DNA from: Methanobrevibacter sp.
Lineage (GTDB): Archaea; Methanobacteriota; Methanobacteria; Methanobacteriales; Methanobacteriaceae
Direction of reading: 5' to 3'
DNA length: 64,000 nt
Assembly (NCBI RefSeq): GCF_015062935.1
Contig: NZ_SUTM01000008.1
Span: 1 to 64,000 of the forward strand
Both the position numbers and the translations under genes were made by a program. This document shows, piece after piece, positions 56,298 through 64,000 of this stretch. Every line of letters begins with the position of its first letter. Position 1 is the first letter of the stretch. The notes beneath the pieces were generated by a model that saw only the letters and a list, made by a program, of their open reading frames with translations, searched no databases and was not told the origin of the DNA.

Positions 56298-56641
56298 GAT
56301 TACTCATGTGTATAAGTAACTAATTTATAATTAATAGTAATAATCATATAAATGTTATTAAAGAACTATCTACATATACCGGCTTTAAATTTAAAAATAA
56401 GTTATTTTAAACAGTTAAATTACATATAACTAAAAATATGGTCTGCAATAGCCCTATAAAATAATAATGATAATTTTTTACGAATTTGTAATACTCACTA
56501 TTTCAAATCAAATCACTTAAAATAGAAAAAAACAAAATTACAACATTTTTTAATTAATTTAAAACATGTTAATTCAATTAAATAAGACAATAAAGCAAAA
56601 CAAACAAGAATAGTGAAAAATAATAAATAATAAAAAAATTT

Positions 56642-56674
56642 AAAAAAGTATTACTTTTCAATAAAATAATACTT
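56642..56674 (-). terminator. Hairpin terminator downstream of the importer/GNAT operon
   Basis: Read on minus: AAGTATTA (56667-56674), a 13-nt loop, TAATACTT (56646-56653), then a T-run. It lies just after the GNAT stop at 56681. The stem resembles the GTAWTAC operators in this cluster, but position and T-run favour a terminator. Confidence 0.6.
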
Positions 56675-56680
56675 CCAAAT

Positions 56681-57187
56681 CTAAATTAATTCCTTAACCA
56701 TGTGAGTGGTTTCATCATAGTCATCTTCTTCAATGGTTATTTTATAACCCAATGATTTCCAGAAAGGCAGTGCTGCATCAAGATACCTGTGAGTATGCAA
56801 GTAAATTTTTGAATAACCTGCATTTTTTGCAAAGTCTTCCATTACATTGACAAGCCGGCGGGCAATACCATGTCGCCTGTAGTTTCCATCAACCATAAGT
56901 CTCCAAATACTTGCAGTATCATCTTTTGAATAAACACCCTTGAATAAGTCATAATCCTTATCATATGCCCTGATTCCTGCTGTAGCTACAATCTTATCAC
57001 CATCCCAAGCAACAAACATGCAATTGCAGTCAGGTGAAATGTAATATTCCTTCATACCGTCGATATCATAGTGAAATTTTGGAGTGGGACCTATACCATA
57101 TTCAATCATAATTTGGCCATATAAGAATTCCTTAACGTCCTCTATTTCATTTATATCATCACTAATTTCTCTAATAACAACATTCAT
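56681..57187 (-). CDS. GNAT family N-acetyltransferase (paralogue 1)
   Basis: A 168-aa acetyltransferase. The acetyl-CoA loop region is ASIWRLMVDGNYRRHGIARRL near residue 90, followed by KIYLHTHRYLDAALPFWKSL. It shares IGIRAYDKDY/F, SIWRL and YLHTH with the GNAT at 61778, and both begin MNV-I: they are paralogues bracketing the importer. It lies 53 bp downstream of the permease gene and is probably co-transcribed with it. The substrate is unknown; a small amine, or the imported compound, is possible. Confidence 0.85.
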   Translation of the reverse strand: MNVVIREISDDINEIEDVKEFLYGQIMIEYGIGPTPKFHYDIDGMKEYYISPDCNCMFVAWDGDKIVATAGIRAYDKDYDLFKGVYSKDDTASIWRLMVDGNYRRHGIARRLVNVMEDFAKNAGYSKIYLHTHRYLDAALPFWKSLGYKITIEEDDYDETTHMVKELI

Positions 57188-57240: not shown

Positions 57241-58095
57241 TTATTCTTGAGCAGTTTCAGGATTAAGTAATTTTTCCACATTTTCCCCAATAAGGTCAAA
57301 TAATAATACAACAATCAGTAATGACATACCAGGATAAAATGCTAGCCACCAGTATCCGGATGACAGATAATGCATGGACTCTGATAAGATAACTCCAATT
57401 GCAGGTTCATGAGGAGGTAATCCGAATCCTAAAAATGTAATAGCCGCTTCGTGCATAATAGCATGAGGGAACATTAAAATTACACCAACAATAATCTGAG
57501 ATACCACCAATGGCAAAATATGTTTGGTAGCAACCCATATTTTAGATCTTCCAAGATTTTCAGCCAGATGGACATATTCTTTAGTTTTAATCTCTTTTAC
57601 TTCAGACCTGAGAACTCTTGCCAAAGGAGTCCAATGAGTTAAACCAACACCCATTACAACACCAAACACTCCACCACCGAACATGATGGAAACAAGAATA
57701 ATTAAAAGAATATGTGGAATGGAACCGAATAAATCAATTATTCCAGCAACAATTTCATCTGCAAGTCTGTTGAAACTTGAAAATAAACCTAAAATTATAG
57801 AAATAATTGTACTGACCACCGATGCAATGAATCCTACCATCAAACTTAACCCGAGACCTGCAATAGTTCTTTGAAACATGTCTCTTCCCATCCAGTCTGT
57901 ACCGAAAAGATGTTCAAAGGAAGGCATCTGATTTGCACTAATGAAACTTGTAGGAATATCCCTGACAAAGTATCCTGAAACAAATACAGAAATAATAACT
58001 AAAGCTGAAATAATAATTATCACAAGAGTTTTAGTCCTAAGATTTGCAGGATATAAAAACCATTGCCTTTTTTCATCAGTTTTCTTTTTAATCAC
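57241..58095 (-). CDS. ABC importer permease, DppC/NikC type
   Basis: Inner-membrane permease of an oligopeptide/nickel-class importer, about 284 aa with six membrane segments. After the first segment comes FGTDWMGRDMFQRTIAGLGLS, the DppC-type motif, and later EAAITFLGFGLPPHEPAIG, the ATPase-contact EAA loop. The start is uncertain: the longest frame begins with TTG at 58125, but AGGAGAG lies upstream of the GTG at 58095, which I choose. It overlaps the partner permease. The substrate (peptide, nickel chelate or other) is not decided. Confidence 0.9.
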   Translation of the reverse strand: MIKKKTDEKRQWFLYPANLRTKTLVIIIISALVIISVFVSGYFVRDIPTSFISANQMPSFEHLFGTDWMGRDMFQRTIAGLGLSLMVGFIASVVSTIISIILGLFSSFNRLADEIVAGIIDLFGSIPHILLIILVSIMFGGGVFGVVMGVGLTHWTPLARVLRSEVKEIKTKEYVHLAENLGRSKIWVATKHILPLVVSQIIVGVILMFPHAIMHEAAITFLGFGLPPHEPAIGVILSESMHYLSSGYWWLAFYPGMSLLIVVLLFDLIGENVEKLLNPETAQE

Positions 58096-59077
58096 TGAAC
58101 TCACTCTCCTTAATTCTTGGGTCAATCAGGTAATAGGAGAGATCCGCAAGCAAATTACCTACAAACACAAATATTGCACTGAAAATTACAATTCCTAAAA
58201 ACAGCGGCACATCACTTTGAAGTCCTGCGGCAACAGCCGTCTGTCCGATTCCAGGATATGAAAATACCTGTTCCACTAAAACAGCACCGCCAAATAACTC
58301 ACTGAATGATAAGAATTGTAGAGTTATTGCAGGAAGCAGGATATTTCTTATTCCATGATTTTTGACTAAATCCCAACCTTTTTCTCCTCTTGATTTAGCA
58401 AATAAAACATAATCAGAGGATAAAACTTGGATTAACTCGTTACGAGTATACATTGCAATAGGTGCAAGACCGACCAAACTTAATGTTAAAGTAGGAAGCA
58501 CAAGCCTTGTTGCCCATTCCATAAATGTAGCATCAGTACTTCTAACACCGATAGGGACTCCAAAACCAATTGGGAACCAACCTAAATAGACTGAAAATAC
58601 CATTAAAATAAGCATTCCAACCCAAAAGGAGGGAGCAGATTGAATTGCATAACAATAAACTTTTACTGCTTTATCTATCAAAGATCCTTTATTTTTACCA
58701 GCAACCACTCCGAAAACAAAACCTAATACACCACTTAATATCCATGATATTGCCATCAATACAATTGAAGCCATAAATTTCTCGAAAATAATGTCAATAA
58801 CAGGAGCACGATAAATTAAGGATGTACCCAGGTTACCTTGAACCAAATCCAATAACCAGTGATAAATTTTTGTTGGTAAAGGAACATTTACACCGAAATA
58901 ACTTTCCAAAATAGCTCTCTGACCTTCAGAAACAGCAGCTCCTTTCAGATAAGTAGTTACAGGATTAATAGGGGATAAATCTAATAAAATAAAACTGAAA
59001 ATTGCAACAACAATCATCAAAATTATAAATCTTATTAATTTATAACCAAAGAATTTTAAAATTTGATTTTTATTCAA
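58088..59077 (-). CDS. ABC importer permease, DppB/NikB type
   Basis: The other half of the importer channel, 329 aa with six membrane segments: VAIFSFILLDLSPINPVTTY (N-terminal), SYFGVNVPLPTKIYHWL, and the EAA-like loop SSDYVLFAKSRGEKGWDLVK followed by HGIRNILLPAITLQ. The start is TTG at 59077, supported by AAGGGGGT upstream. It follows the substrate-binding protein gene by 52 bp. Confidence 0.92.
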   Translation of the reverse strand: MNKNQILKFFGYKLIRFIILMIVVAIFSFILLDLSPINPVTTYLKGAAVSEGQRAILESYFGVNVPLPTKIYHWLLDLVQGNLGTSLIYRAPVIDIIFEKFMASIVLMAISWILSGVLGFVFGVVAGKNKGSLIDKAVKVYCYAIQSAPSFWVGMLILMVFSVYLGWFPIGFGVPIGVRSTDATFMEWATRLVLPTLTLSLVGLAPIAMYTRNELIQVLSSDYVLFAKSRGEKGWDLVKNHGIRNILLPAITLQFLSFSELFGGAVLVEQVFSYPGIGQTAVAAGLQSDVPLFLGIVIFSAIFVFVGNLLADLSYYLIDPRIKESEFSD

Positions 59078-59129: not shown

Positions 59130-60746
59130 TTAAGCTGTAGAGTTGGTTCTTGTCCAATCACAGATGTTAATTAATACATCGTTTCCTAAACCGTCAGGTT
59201 GATTACCAATATCGATTCCATCTTTGATGAAGTAGTTGTAGTCATAATTGACTAACCATACAAATGGAGCGTCACCAGCAGGACCCCAACCTCCGCCATT
59301 AACTAAAGCGGATTGAGACCATAAATCGTTTGCAGTACTTAAATCACTGGAATGCATTGCTTCATCCATTAAGTTATCGGAATCAGTATTGTTATATAAG
59401 TTAGGGTTCATATAGAATCCGTCTGCCTCTTTACTGTGGTATTGTTGGTAGATGGATTTATATGGGTCTGGAGAAGTTTGTTGCATTAATGCAGCTGAGC
59501 AGTACATGTTTTGGTAAATAGTATCCCAGTCAGCACCTACTAAATTAACTTCAATTCCAATTTCTTTTGCTTGTTCAGCGAATACTGTGGATAAAGATTG
59601 TCTGTCAAGATAATCTGGCGGGTAGTATAAATCAAATGATGCTTTTACACCATCTTTTTCAACTATTCCATCACCATTAGTATCGTTCCATCCGCCTTCA
59701 GCCAATATCCTTTTAGCTTCATCAACATTACTGTCATTGACTTTAGCATCAGGATTTGCATAATCCCTGGTATCTACACTTGTATATTCAGGAGTAGCGT
59801 GTCCGGAGAAAATTTCATCACACATTTTTTGACGATCAACACCAACGTTTAATGCTTCTCTGATTGCTTTATCGGAAGTTACATTGTTTCCTATTTTATA
59901 GGTACCATTGTAAGAATCACCATTGTCAGGGAGATAAGGTAAAGATACACCCTGTGCCCTACCTGCTGATTTTTCAATGAATTGATATCCGTCAACAGAT
60001 TGGTTCAATGCTGAAGTAGCAACAGGCACTACATCAATTTCGTTTGATTTAGCTAATTCTAACCATGTAGATTCTTCAGGGAACAATAAGGTTAATTGAG
60101 TAAAGTATGGTTTTTCACCATAGTAATTATCGTTGATTTTGAATATTGCTTGTTGGCCTTTATCCCAGTGGTCTAAAACATAAGGTCCAGTACCGATTGG
60201 GTTTTCACCGTAGGTATTGTTATCGTATGAATCAGAAGGAACAATACCCAAATATCTTAAATCATAAATAAAAGTTGATCTTGGTTCAACTAAATTAAAT
60301 TCTACTGTGGTAGCATTAACTGCAGTTGCATTTTCAAGATTGGTTAAATCTAAATCAGATTCTGTTGCTTTTGCAGTGTTGAATGTAAATGCTACATCTT
60401 CTGCATCAAAAGTGGAATTATCTGAAAATTTAACATCATTTCTTATATTTACTGTCCATGTTTTTCCGTCACTGCTGATTGAGTAATCAGTAGCAAGGTC
60501 CGGTTCCATAGTTCCATTTTCGCCTGTTTTAAATAAACAGCTTTGTACTAAAGGATTATAGTTTTGGTGTCCGCATCCCCAACCCGTGAGAGGATTAAAA
60601 CCTGCTTCAGGTTCTTTAATGTTACTGTGAGCAGCTACAGTTAAATGAGTAGGATCGCTGTCAGCAGAACCTCCCATAAATGCGAATGCTGCAGCAACAA
60701 TAACCACTAAAGCTACAACCCCACCAATTAATATTTTTTTATCCAT
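59130..60746 (-). CDS. ABC importer substrate-binding protein (SBP family 5, DppA/NikA/OppA-like)
   Basis: A 538-aa extracellular binding protein. An N-terminal hydrophobic segment (ILIGGVVALVVIVAAAFAFM) anchors it; no lipobox is seen. Family 5 features are EPDLATDYSISSDGKTWTVN, VKFSDNSTFDAEDVAFTFN, NPIGTGPYVL, and KAIREALNVGVDRQKM. I start at the ATG at 60746, with GGTGA 7 nt upstream. The ligand may be a peptide or a nickel chelate; nickel would fit a methanogen, but no specific ligand residue can be read. Confidence 0.92.
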   Translation of the reverse strand: MDKKILIGGVVALVVIVAAAFAFMGGSADSDPTHLTVAAHSNIKEPEAGFNPLTGWGCGHQNYNPLVQSCLFKTGENGTMEPDLATDYSISSDGKTWTVNIRNDVKFSDNSTFDAEDVAFTFNTAKATESDLDLTNLENATAVNATTVEFNLVEPRSTFIYDLRYLGIVPSDSYDNNTYGENPIGTGPYVLDHWDKGQQAIFKINDNYYGEKPYFTQLTLLFPEESTWLELAKSNEIDVVPVATSALNQSVDGYQFIEKSAGRAQGVSLPYLPDNGDSYNGTYKIGNNVTSDKAIREALNVGVDRQKMCDEIFSGHATPEYTSVDTRDYANPDAKVNDSNVDEAKRILAEGGWNDTNGDGIVEKDGVKASFDLYYPPDYLDRQSLSTVFAEQAKEIGIEVNLVGADWDTIYQNMYCSAALMQQTSPDPYKSIYQQYHSKEADGFYMNPNLYNNTDSDNLMDEAMHSSDLSTANDLWSQSALVNGGGWGPAGDAPFVWLVNYDYNYFIKDGIDIGNQPDGLGNDVLINICDWTRTNSTA

Positions 60747-60787
60747 ATCTTTTTCACCATAAAAAATCATTAAATTATTATTAAAAT

Positions 60788-60831
60788 AAAAGTAATACTT
60801 TTAAGAATAATTTTACTTAATAAGTAATACT
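60788..60831. promoter_or_regulatory. Paired GTAWTAC palindromes upstream of the substrate-binding protein gene
   Basis: A perfect 15-bp palindrome AAAAGTAATACTTTT (60788-60802, centre 60795) and AGTAATACT (60823-60831, centre 60827) lie 32 bp apart centre to centre. TTACTTAATAAGTAA overlaps between them. They sit where the minus-strand core promoter should be, suggesting a repressor site. The same pair with the same spacing occurs at 62351-62397. Confidence 0.6.
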
Positions 60832-61042
60832 AATTTGATTTATTTTAATATGTTTTATAATTTACAAAAACAACATATAAAAACATATTTATTACTTCTA
60901 AATTATTATTGATAAACTAAAAAATATTCAAACTTAGCAGATAAAAAATAACAGATAGACAAATAAAAAAAGAAAAATCCCCTAATTAAAAGAAAATAAT
61001 CAGAAAAATAAAACAGAAACATATACAAGAAAATTATCAAAA

Positions 61043-61049
61043 GTAATAC
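61043..61049. promoter_or_regulatory. Single GTAATAC site upstream of the QueG-like gene
   Basis: AAAAGTAATACAAAA has the same core as the paired sites, placed about 42 bp before the ATG at 61091 and just upstream of a TTTAAATAA TATA-like stretch. No second core lies 32 bp away, so this may be a weaker member of the set. Confidence 0.4.
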
Positions 61050-61090
61050 AAAAATTAAATTTAAATAACATCACAGTTAAATATTGGCTC

Positions 61091-61783
61091 ATGACTATTT
61101 CTTTTGAACTAAAAAACTATTTGCTGAAAAACGGTGCAATAGAGGTAGGATATGCAGATATAGAAAATTTCACACCCAAAAAAGACTTAAATACAGGCAT
61201 TGTTTTTTATATCACATACCCCAAGGAAATAATAAAAAATATGAAAAATGCACCCACAAAAGAATATGTAGAAGAATTAGTTAGTTTAAACACACGTTTA
61301 GATGAATTAGGTATGAAATGTGAAGAATATCTGATAAATAAAGGTTTTAATGCATATGCCCAAACAAAAAAAAGATTGGGAACTGATTTTGGTGAATTTA
61401 ATTCCTTTGAGCTACCACATAAAACCATAGCCACACGTGCAGGTCTTGGCTGGATTGGAAAATCAGCACTATTTACAACAAAAAAATACGGATCCGCCTT
61501 AAGATTATCCTCTGTTTTAACTGATGCACCTTTAAAAATTGGAACTCCAATACTAAAATCCCAATGTGGAAAATGTATGGAATGTAGAAATGCATGTCCC
61601 GGAGGCGCCATAAGCGGGAAAGAATGGAACTACAGACTTAAACGTAACGAATTTTACGACGATAAAAAATGTGAAAAATATGCATTAAAAGTTTCAGAAG
61701 AAAATCTGGGAAAAGCAGATACGGTATGTGGAAAATGTATCTATGCATGTCCACATACACAAAGATATATTAAAAAATCATAA
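61091..61783 (+). CDS. QueG-like (epoxyqueuosine-reductase-related) Fe-S protein
   Basis: A 230-aa protein related to QueG/cobalamin-dependent reductases. It has TRAGLGWIGKSALFTTKKYG, then two cluster motifs: CGKCMECRNACPGGAISG, and CGKCIYACPHTQ with an earlier KKC. At 230 aa it is shorter than bacterial QueG (over 300). Archaea make archaeosine, not queuosine, so tRNA epoxyqueuosine is an unlikely substrate. Its position between importer arms suggests reduction of, or metal release from, an imported compound; that is inference. Converges with the GNAT gene (6-bp overlap). Confidence 0.8.
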   Translation: MTISFELKNYLLKNGAIEVGYADIENFTPKKDLNTGIVFYITYPKEIIKNMKNAPTKEYVEELVSLNTRLDELGMKCEEYLINKGFNAYAQTKKRLGTDFGEFNSFELPHKTIATRAGLGWIGKSALFTTKKYGSALRLSSVLTDAPLKIGTPILKSQCGKCMECRNACPGGAISGKEWNYRLKRNEFYDDKKCEKYALKVSEENLGKADTVCGKCIYACPHTQRYIKKS

Positions 61784-62338
61784 TTTTACAGCATAGCGAA
61801 AATCATTCGCTGAAGGATTAATTTCTAATCCCCTAATAGTTTTATCCATATGAACTGTTTCAAGCTCATCATTTGCATCCAGAACAACAACAAAACCCAT
61901 CTTTGTCCAGAATTCCAAAGCACCATTTAAATTCTTATGAGTATGCAAGTAAATTTTTTCAAAATCGGCATCATTGGCAAAATTTTCTGCAATACTGAAT
62001 AATTTTGAAGCTAAACCGCAACGACGATATTCCTCATCAACAAACAGTCTCCAAATACTGGAGGTTGCATCTTTCGAATACAGAGATCCAAATTCAGAAA
62101 AATCTTTGTCATAAGCTCTAATGCCAATTGTTCCAATAATTTCACCAGATTTAAAATAAGCGACGAAAAAATTATTACGTTCAGGATTAATGTAATAATC
62201 CTCCATTTTTATAATATCTTCATGCCATTCAGGAACATAATCATACCCAAATTCTTTTTTAATCATTTTAAACAAAAATTCTTGAACATCCCTAATCTGT
62301 TTTGAATCATTGCCTAACGGTTTAATTATAACATTCAT
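61778..62338 (-). CDS. GNAT family N-acetyltransferase (paralogue 2)
   Basis: A 186-aa paralogue of the GNAT at 56681: IGIRAYDKDFSEFGSLYSKD, SSIWRLFVDEEYRRCGLASK, EKIYLHTHKNLNGALEFW. It carries an extra C-terminal tail of about 20 residues (LEINPSANDFRYAVKL). Its promoter contains the paired palindromes: a minus-strand TATA-like ACATATATTTTG lies between them. It is divergent from the ATPase gene. Confidence 0.85.
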   Translation of the reverse strand: MNVIIKPLGNDSKQIRDVQEFLFKMIKKEFGYDYVPEWHEDIIKMEDYYINPERNNFFVAYFKSGEIIGTIGIRAYDKDFSEFGSLYSKDATSSIWRLFVDEEYRRCGLASKLFSIAENFANDADFEKIYLHTHKNLNGALEFWTKMGFVVVLDANDELETVHMDKTIRGLEINPSANDFRYAVKL

Positions 62339-62350
62339 GAAAACACCCGT

Positions 62351-62397
62351 AAAAGTATTACATTTATTACAAAATATATGTTATTAGTAATACTTTT
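62351..62397. promoter_or_regulatory. Paired GTAWTAC palindromes between the GNAT and importer ATPase genes
   Basis: AAAAGTATTAC (62351-62361, core centre 62358) and GTAATACTTTT (62387-62397, core centre 62390) are inverted 11-bp arms, 32 bp between core centres. The minus-strand TATA box lies between them. The spacing equals that at 60788-60831. Confidence 0.6.
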
Positions 62398-62479: not shown

Positions 62480-63427
62480 ATGGAGAAATTACTAGATGTA
62501 GAAAACGTTTCAATTTCATTTATACAATACACAAAAGGTTTGAATCAGCAAAACCTGCAAGTTATCACCGATTTAACATTAGATATCTCCGAAGGTGAAA
62601 TTTTAGCAGTTTTAGGCTCAAGTGGATCTGGAAAAAGCCTTCTTGCACATGCAATTTTCGGAATTCTTCCAGAAAATGCAAAACTAAACGGAAAGATAAA
62701 ATTCAAAGGAAAAGAACTGTCTCAAAAAGACAAGGAAGAGATAAGAGGAAAAGATATGGTTCTTGTACCACAATCTGTTAACTTCCTTGACCCCTTAATG
62801 AAAATATCCGACCAGGCAATTGGCCATACAGAAAATGATGCGGAAAGAAATGAAAAGAAACAGAAACAAAGAAAAATATTTGAACATTACAATCTTGGAC
62901 CAGAAGTAGATGAAATGTATCCTTTCCAACTATCAGGAGGAATGGCAAGAAGAGTATTGGTATCAACAGCATTACTATCCAATCCAAAACTTGTGGTAGC
63001 AGACGAACCAACCCCAGGTTTAGATGAAAAAACTGTGAAAGAGACTCTGAATCATTTTAAACATATGAAAGATGACAACATAGGCGTTTTATTAATCACA
63101 CACGATATTCATGCGGCACTAGAAGTGGCGGATAGAATAGGAATATTCTACTCAGGATACGTAATAGAAATAGCAGAAAACAAAGACTTCACAGGAGATG
63201 GAGAAAACCTCCTACACCCATACACAAAAGCACTATACAAAGCACTGCCAGCAAACGGATTCGAACTAACTAAAGGACACCAACCACTACACGGAGAAAT
63301 ACCAAACGGATGCCCATACTACGACAGATGCGAAATGCGCTTTGACAGATGCAAACAGGAAAGACCACAACTAATCGACCTGGGAAACAAAAAAGTAAGA
63401 TGCTTTAAATACGAAGAAGGTGATTAA
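62480..63427 (+). CDS. ABC importer ATPase, DppD/NikD type
   Basis: First ATPase of the importer, 315 aa. Walker A is GSSGSGKSLLAHAIFG (near 47-56), the Q-loop VPQSVNFLDPLM, signature LSGGMARRVLVSTAL, Walker B LVVADEPTPGLD, switch His in ITHDIH. The C-terminal cysteine domain CPYYDRCEMRFDRCKQERP is typical of oligopeptide/nickel-class ATPases. GGTGA precedes the ATG. The second ATPase follows 2 bp later. Confidence 0.93.
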   Translation: MEKLLDVENVSISFIQYTKGLNQQNLQVITDLTLDISEGEILAVLGSSGSGKSLLAHAIFGILPENAKLNGKIKFKGKELSQKDKEEIRGKDMVLVPQSVNFLDPLMKISDQAIGHTENDAERNEKKQKQRKIFEHYNLGPEVDEMYPFQLSGGMARRVLVSTALLSNPKLVVADEPTPGLDEKTVKETLNHFKHMKDDNIGVLLITHDIHAALEVADRIGIFYSGYVIEIAENKDFTGDGENLLHPYTKALYKALPANGFELTKGHQPLHGEIPNGCPYYDRCEMRFDRCKQERPQLIDLGNKKVRCFKYEEGD

Positions 63428-63429
63428 CA

Positions 63430-64000
63430 ATGAAACTCAAAGCAGAAAACATATCTTTCAAATATCCTTCCGCTAAAAATTACATATTAAAAGACATTAA
63501 TCTTGAACTTGACAATAATAAGGTAATTGGTTTAATTGGTGACAGTGGAAGTGGAAAATCCACATTATGTAAAATCTTATCAGGATATGTAACAAAATTT
63601 GAAGGGAGGGTTACATTCGATGGAAATCCATTGCCTAAAAAAGGATTCAAACCTGTACAATTGATTTATCAACACCCTGAAAAGGTAATGAATCCAAAAT
63701 GGAAAATGAAAGAGGTTTTGGAAGAATCATGGGATGTTAATGATGAAATGCTGTCAGAATTCGGTATCCAAAAATCCTGGCTGACAAGATTTCCTCAAGA
63801 GTTATCCGGTGGAGAACTTCAAAGATTCTCCGTTTTAAGGTCACTTAATCCAAATACCAAATTTTTAATTGCAGATGAAATGACCACCATGCTTGATGCA
63901 ATCACACAGGTGCAGATTTTAGATTCAGTTTTGAAAATAGTAAAACAAAGAAACATGGGATTTTTACTTGTAAGTCATGACATGGATTTGGTGGAAACCA
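63430..64000 (+). CDS. ABC importer ATPase, DppF/NikE type (cut by window end)
   Basis: Second ATPase, only the first ~190 residues in the window. Walker A is GDSGSGKSTLCKILSG, Q-loop IYQHPEKVMNPKW, signature LSGGELQRFSVLRSL, Walker B FLIADEMTTMLDA, switch His SHDMD. No stop is present before the edge. It completes the two-ATPase arrangement expected for the importer whose binding protein and permeases lie on the other strand at 57241-60746. Confidence 0.92.
   Translation, partial: MKLKAENISFKYPSAKNYILKDINLELDNNKVIGLIGDSGSGKSTLCKILSGYVTKFEGRVTFDGNPLPKKGFKPVQLIYQHPEKVMNPKWKMKEVLEESWDVNDEMLSEFGIQKSWLTRFPQELSGGELQRFSVLRSLNPNTKFLIADEMTTMLDAITQVQILDSVLKIVKQRNMGFLLVSHDMDLVET

Follow-up and report, generated by a model that had tools for sequence, protein, structure and literature searches.

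Paired GTAWTAC cores three helical turns apart as probable operators of a nickel-starvation regulon in Methanobacteriales

Among the closest described systems are the operators of NikR. The Escherichia coli operator reads GTATGA-N16-TCATAC (PMC7055735), and delta-proteobacterial sites read GTGTTAC-N13/14-GTAACAC, with one site, at an Fe-only hydrogenase operon, reading GTaTTAC (PMC545781). NikR takes open, trans, and cis shapes and is described as the only ribbon-helix-helix regulator known to be metal controlled (PMC7055735). No three-turn NikR site appears in the excerpts of PMC545781 and PMC7055735. For methanogens, excerpts of PMC10617489 tell of NikR sites and nikMNQO, and in proteomics of Methanothermobacter marburgensis, nickel limitation raised the levels of Hmd, HcgG, CobN1, NikR1, and two transporters, MTBMA_c10530 and c10830, with CobN1 high only under this condition (PMC12350162). 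The open-licence literature on Hmd and NikR in methanogens, as far as its excerpts go, gives no operator.

The window, i.e., the whole 64,000-nucleotide stretch of Methanobrevibacter sp. DNA analyzed here, belongs to contig C8 of a genome (G000) that totals 2.5 Mb over 44 contigs, and it carries palindromic cores at the genes of a Nik/Opp-type importer (Table 1). The initial annotation had described GTAWTAC pairs with centers at 60795 and 60827 and at 62358 and 62390, identically spaced. Exact cores are indeed present at these centers, both pairs are 32 bp apart from start to start, and the window has no other exact pair at this spacing. The proposal that a regulon joins both importer arms and a GNAT gene was supported. 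Pairs occur at both promoters, related species retain the spacing, and the regulon is much larger than the window shows. Its extension to a "QueG-like" Fe-S gene held only in part. The single core upstream of this gene was confirmed and a core precedes four of the five homologues looked at, but no partner core with 0 or 1 mismatch was found at 31 to 33 bp in these five; a two-mismatch partner pair at the homologue in G009 was dropped. The QueG-like identity itself was not upheld, with 61 bits against TIGR00276 compared to a cut-off of 200 and only Fer4 domains found by Pfam. Likewise, a test for a NikABCDE nickel importer gave matches of the window proteins to nickel/oligopeptide families below the curated nickel cut-offs, and these importers, as well as CbiMNQO, would carry nickel or cobalt judging by family. 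The NikA-like protein may start at the ATG at 60746 instead. Two more unpaired cores, 160 bp apart (56488-56494 and 56648-56654), lie downstream of the GNAT gene that ends the nikA-B-C-like row.

Table 1 Features of the window (window coordinates) and of the genome it belongs to (contig coordinates)
Feature	Coordinates	Strand	Remarks
GTAATAC half-site, pair 1, nearer to nikA-like gene	60792..60798	+	exact core
GTAATAC half-site, pair 1, 32 bp from its partner	60824..60830	+	exact core
GTATTAC half-site, pair 2, flanked by divergently transcribed GNAT and ATPase genes	62355..62361	+	exact core
GTAATAC half-site, pair 2, 32 bp from its partner	62387..62393	+	exact core
Single unpaired core upstream of QueG-like gene	61043..61049	+	exact core; regulon membership uncertain
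GNAT acetyltransferase, end of nikA-B-C-like gene row	56681..57187	-	
NikC/OppC-type permease	57241..58125	-	below curated cut-offs
NikB/OppB-type permease	58088..59077	-	below curated cut-offs
NikA/CntA/Opp-type substrate-binding protein	59130..60770	-	best TIGR02294 nickel_nikA, E 5.8e-50, 170 bits, below cut-off 393
"QueG-like" 4Fe-4S protein	61091..61783	+	Fer4_16, 230 aa
GNAT acetyltransferase, divergent from ATPase genes	61778..62338	-	pair 2 in promoter region
NikD/OppD-type ATPase	62480..63427	+	pair 2 upstream; below curated nickel cut-offs
NikE-type ATPase	63430..63999	+	continues to 64044 in contig
Own-genome pair at nikA-like gene			
Own-genome pair at GNAT/nikD-like genes			
Own-genome pair at CobN-like gene			followed by DUF2162, MotA/ExbB, and DUF2149 genes
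Own-genome pairs (two) at cbiM-cbiN-cbiQ-cbiO			
Own-genome pair at nicotianamine synthase/GNAT			
Own-genome pairs (two) at heavy-metal P1B ATPase			
Own-genome pair between DUF3194-type and HisA-like genes	C4:130630-130669 (L028 6631-6670)		33 bp; adjoins no clear metal gene
Nicotianamine synthase gene	C39:823-1653 (L026)		adjoins GNAT and Nik/Opp-type operon

The pairs had also been proposed to flank or overlap the core promoter. This was only partly borne out: a perfect TTTAWATA lies within the pair at some genes and just downstream of it at others, and the nikA-like gene has no perfect match in the stretch examined. Of 35 pair-gene rows, only 10 showed a perfect match in this stretch, variously within the pair, below it, or above it. 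Therefore, a fixed TATA position inside the pair was rejected and no single promoter geometry is claimed.

Genome-wide, the exact pairs follow a narrow spacing rule. The search for two cores 32 bp apart, proposed with the initial annotation, returned five exact pairs, compared to none with the reversed pattern. When all spacings from 18 to 48 bp were considered (13 exact pairs), five pairs were at 32 bp and four at 33 bp, with one each at 18, 20, 21, and 42 bp. The nine pairs at 31 to 33 bp (binomial P of 3.7e-7 over 31 spacings) compare to 0.18 expected from the core density of the window and to 1 in the reversed-pattern control. This means that the rule is 31 to 33 bp and that the window pairs represent the 32-bp case. 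With up to two mismatches, the 32-bp pattern was not enriched in this genome (42 matches compared to 65 in the control), which shows that the signal is confined to near-exact sites; weak pairs were accordingly left out of the evidence. The caution that the motif might be equally frequent at random AT-rich sites applies to single cores in the window, which were not significantly enriched (10 compared to a shuffle mean of 5.74, with at least 10 in 7 of 100 shuffles), but not to pairs.

The half-site consensus is AGTAWTACT, a 9-bp palindrome with A/T-rich flanks. Read from the outside to the inside, the center base has a T frequency of 0.64 over 162 half-sites, which means a preference for GTATTAC..GTAATAC. 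Among 118 unique pair sequences from the genus and a few neighbors, spacings of 31, 32, and 33 bp occurred 14, 44, and 23 times, and a second group of 23 was at 40 to 43 bp, counts that describe the sites and are no independent test, the loci having been partly recruited by the pattern itself. At hmd, the 40- to 43-bp group consists of two interleaved pairs (31-9-31 bp). Other arrangements were also seen in the window's own genome. GTATTAC-N14-GTAATAC, the canonical two-turn NikR layout, is present at C19:519-546 (L029), about 120 bp upstream of a gene which we take to be a Mer-like F420-dependent one, and beyond the window two cores 72 bp apart (C8:64103 and 64175, L033) precede a complete second operon of the Nik/Opp type (64305-69415).

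The paired element is real and conserved, and it is probably an operator. The initial annotation had named loss of the spacing in related species as grounds for giving up the idea, but exact 31- to 33-bp pairs are present in 137 of 149 genomes of the order, with 844 pairs compared to 63 in the reversed control. All 66 genomes of the genus have them (517 pairs, control 44), as do 65 of 71 genomes from other genera of the family (321 pairs, control 18) and 6 of 12 from two further families (6 pairs, control 1); none was found in the single genome searched from the class outside the order. In four relatives with complete lists (G009, G010, G011, and G014), 38 of 52 pairs were at 31 to 33 bp (P of 1e-27). 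Hairpin-like inverted repeats of another kind, GTATTACACG...CGTGTAATAC, occur in family f3 (G017 C1:1113998, G019 C2:71182, and G021 C1:252644) and are probably unrelated to the operators.

Most pairs stand at metal genes or their gene rows: 8 of 9 in the window's own genome, 10 of 11 in G014, 8 of 9 in G010, 8 of 8 in G011, and 8 of 10 in G009, where one of the ten was left unexamined. In relatives, the pairs recur at the genes that bear them in the own genome (Table 1) and, in addition, at hmd/hcgG. Outside the family, a 33-bp pair with both half-sites exact precedes cbiMNQO in G016, where a gene of the CODH type (Prismane/CO dehydrogenase) runs divergently from the paired cbiM. A ChlI-like/ECF/CobN operon likewise has a pair upstream there, with two exact half-sites at 31 bp in G025 and with one degenerate half-site at 32 bp in G017 and at 33 bp in G021 and G023. 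One degenerate half-site is also found in the pair preceding the CobN gene of G022, and an exact pair precedes a DUF3344 surface protein in G073. A pair at G024 270133, which shares sequence with the beginning of a glycosyltransferase-like open reading frame, was taken as chance.

The 33-bp pair after the DUF3194-type gene is recurrent in the genus. It adjoins no clear metal gene, a CDF efflux gene being about 1.7 kb off, and the roughly 550 bp that follow it show no clear gene. Rfam gave no known RNA at this site and only short open reading frames were seen, so that an RNA of this kind or an overlooked gene was rejected. Since the nicotianamine synthase/GNAT pair of G073 adjoins DUF3194, the pair in the genus may be a relic or may serve an unknown RNA.

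The pairs at hmd provide a link to a nickel-free hydrogenase. In G014, both hmd (PF22616/PF03201) and hcgG (PF10113) were verified and share a promoter region with pairs; hmd was not found in the window's own genome. The two genes are divergent with pairs between them at G014 C1:518159-521085 and G010 C1:707766-710613, and in several species the pairs are interleaved (31-9-31 bp). Of 30 genus hmd loci, 7 were excluded for incomplete upstream DNA or an unparsed start. Among the remaining 23, 12 have an exact 31- to 33-bp pair and 11 do not, and 20 have at least one core, which leaves 3 with none. A different arrangement was seen in family f2, where all six parsed hmd leaders have a core at -25 and GTACTAC 21 bp upstream, which is the canonical two-turn distance; the Hmd start was parsed in only 9 of 30 f2/f3 loci, and no conclusion rests on this arrangement.

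Nicotianamine synthase is another recurrent member of these gene rows. The own-genome protein matches PF03059 (E of 1.5e-22, 80.7 bits compared to a cut-off of 27.1) and is up to 95% identical to the synthases of uncultured Methanobrevibacter assemblies, which marks the host as a Methanobrevibacter-type archaeon; 99 of the order's 149 genomes encode a member of the family. A 31- to 33-bp pair lies within 700 bp upstream in 12 of 40 named loci. In 11 of the other 28, the synthase gene immediately follows nikE-like or GNAT genes in the same orientation, and nik-type genes are near it in 14 of the 40, as well as on contig C39 of the own genome. This means that the synthase is often part of importer clusters. 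In family f2, which is not the family of the genus, all eight genomes have a 32-bp pair at the nicotianamine synthase/GNAT promoter; two of these pairs are exact, and six have one degenerate half-site (only coordinates were used to place those of G022 and G075). Genes for an FmdE-domain protein and a CobN-like protein come after the synthase gene in G073. Outside the archaea, a 56% identical relative in a Peptococcaceae assembly (L263) adjoins CbiM/CbiQ genes. Genes for transporters of the MATE family, possible chelator exporters, neighbor nik, cobN, and nicotianamine synthase genes (C8:69412-70782 in L033, L024 7671-9041, L235, L236, L248, and L260).

A NikR-type repressor had been suggested as one candidate binder, with no regulator gene in view. 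A single nikR gene is in fact present elsewhere in the genome (C31:12035-12487). Its product has RHH_1 (PF01402) and NikR_C (PF08753) domains and scores 238 bits with NF002169 (cut-off 111) and 78.6 bits with TIGR02793, below the cut-off of 175. The residues H, HxH, and C, which we take to be the nickel ligands, align with those of Pyrococcus horikoshii NikR (2bj1). NikR was found in 136 of the order's 149 genomes and in 88 of 90 good ones; the four pair-bearing genus genomes in which it was not found are 77 to 89% complete. Reportedly, Rodionov et al. (2006) predicted NikR sites in eight methanogen genomes, and their motif or spacing may overlap with these operators or already contain part of them. 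At nikR itself, none of the 29 parsed promoters (30 loci) has an exact core; six have two-mismatch pairs only, taken as chance in AT-rich DNA, and autoregulation through this element was rejected.

The suggestion stands as to the half-site and not as to the spacing. Inverted half-sites of the GTRTTAC/GTATGA type are present as GTAWTAC cores, GTATTAC matches a predicted Desulfovibrio NikR half-site (PMC545781), the pairs lie upstream of genes assigned by sequence to nickel transport (nik-type and cbiMNQO), and the genome has nikR. In contrast, the canonical two-turn N13-N16 spacing is replaced by N24-N26, and pairs at 20 to 21 bp are only scattered.

The reading that best accounts for these data, at a probability of about 0.7, is that the paired cores are operators of a Methanobacteriales nickel-starvation regulon with NikR as the most likely binder. 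Each core (AGTAWTACT) would be the half-site for one ribbon-helix-helix dimer, and at 31 to 33 bp, about three helical turns, two half-sites would lie on one helix face and permit cooperative binding. NikR with nickel would occupy the pair and block the promoter; when nickel is scarce, it would release the DNA. The freed genes would be those for Nik/Opp-type and CbiMNQO nickel/cobalt importers, CobN-like chelatases with surface proteins, the P1B ATPase, nicotianamine synthase with GNAT, and, where present, the nickel-free hydrogenase Hmd with the cofactor gene hcgG. Because the pairs stand in front of nickel-fetching genes and, in relatives, of a nickel-free hydrogenase, these genes are probably switched on at nickel shortage. 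The open, trans, and cis shapes of NikR make the longer reach conceivable.

NikR as the binder of the pairs is probable, and it is unlikely, though worth considering, that the same nickel regulon is read by another protein, such as the winged-helix and CBS protein encoded near the P1B ATPase, the PhoU-HTH protein encoded near hcgG, or another metal repressor. The HTH+CBS gene (PF03444 and PF00571 in the own genome) is near the P1B gene in five of five genomes looked at, with relatives outside the own genome recognized by a like N terminus, and the PhoU-HTH gene is near hcgG in G014. The lack of a site at nikR and a spacing unlike that of the operators in the excerpts of PMC545781 and PMC7055735 would also fit such a binder. 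However, a 9-bp palindrome suits a ribbon-helix-helix dimer, and the DNA-contacting strand of NikR, MRISMSL, is identical in all 29 parsed copies, which represent two families (one of 30 loci was unparsed), as constant as the half-site. NikR is, moreover, the sole ribbon-helix-helix regulator known to be under metal control (PMC7055735, in excerpt), and the half-site is one predicted for NikR.

A response to cobalt or corrinoid supply instead of nickel is improbable. It would explain why CbiM and CbiQ match cobalt-named families, why CobN is named a cobaltochelatase, and why the bacterial nicotianamine synthase gene of L263 adjoins CbiM/CbiQ, but it is nickel limitation that raises Hmd and HcgG, which belong to a nickel-free bypass, and that alone gives high CobN1 (PMC12350162, in excerpt), and the gene divergent from the paired cbiM of G016 is of the CODH type. 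That AT-rich core-promoter sequence gave rise to the pairs by chance is hardly credible: the unenriched single cores, the A/T-rich flanks, and the failure of the two-mismatch search would all be expected from it, whereas the peak at 31 to 33 bp over a near-empty background, the control comparison (844 compared to 63 pairs in 149 genomes), and the same genes bearing pairs across different genera would not.

A further and more tentative idea, somewhat less likely to be right than wrong, is an archaeal nickelophore: a nicotianamine-like chelator would be made under nickel starvation, perhaps acetylated by the coregulated GNAT, and its nickel complex reimported via the Nik/Opp-type importers of the window, with three-turn NikR also releasing Hmd. 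Archaeal nicotianamine synthase would thereby gain a physiological role, and NikR a second geometry on DNA. The excerpts of PMC10248798 state no archaeal role for the enzyme, nothing was found in the open-licence literature on nicotianamine synthase with nickel in the archaeon Methanothermobacter, and what that literature has on nicotianamine together with NikR and archaea concerns plant-bacterial nickel tolerance. In gene content, the nearest parallel is the staphylopine-type (cnt) systems, which share a nicotianamine-synthase-like gene beside a Nik/Opp-family importer. They differ in that a GNAT gene here takes the place presumably held by the opine dehydrogenase gene in cnt, and the importer proteins here are below the Cnt cut-offs.

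Methanogens depend on nickel enzymes, and a conserved operator with precise spacing would supply the DNA element for sensing nickel shortage. The spacing rule would let the regulon be predicted from sequence in uncultured rumen methanogens, the operator would tie archaeal nicotianamine synthase to nickel supply, and a structural question would be posed as to how a NikR tetramer could span three turns. The M. marburgensis proteome shows the corresponding switch to Hmd. The families that rise there (Hmd, HcgG, CobN, and transporters), matched by family and not by locus, bear pairs here, with the exception that NikR1 rises there whereas nikR here has no pair; the excerpts of that study name neither a DNA element nor a regulator (PMC12350162). 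Like the pairs, the E. coli operator precedes a Nik/Opp-type importer and has its two short half-sites on the same face of the helix, but these are two turns apart with other letters and its target is the nik operon (PMC7055735). The delta-proteobacterial operators have the same inverted half-site letters, GTRTTAC, and nickel transporter targets, and in D. desulfuricans NikR also has a nickel-independent hydrogenase as a target; they differ in being 20 to 21 bp apart from start to start compared to 31 to 33 bp here, where the core is itself palindromic (GTAWTAC) and the target set far larger (PMC545781, in excerpt). Thus, the half-site and the targets, including the kind of hydrogenase among them, are in agreement with NikR; the distance is not, and with their three-turn spacing the pairs are kept out of the canonical NikR operator class and regarded as a variant of it.
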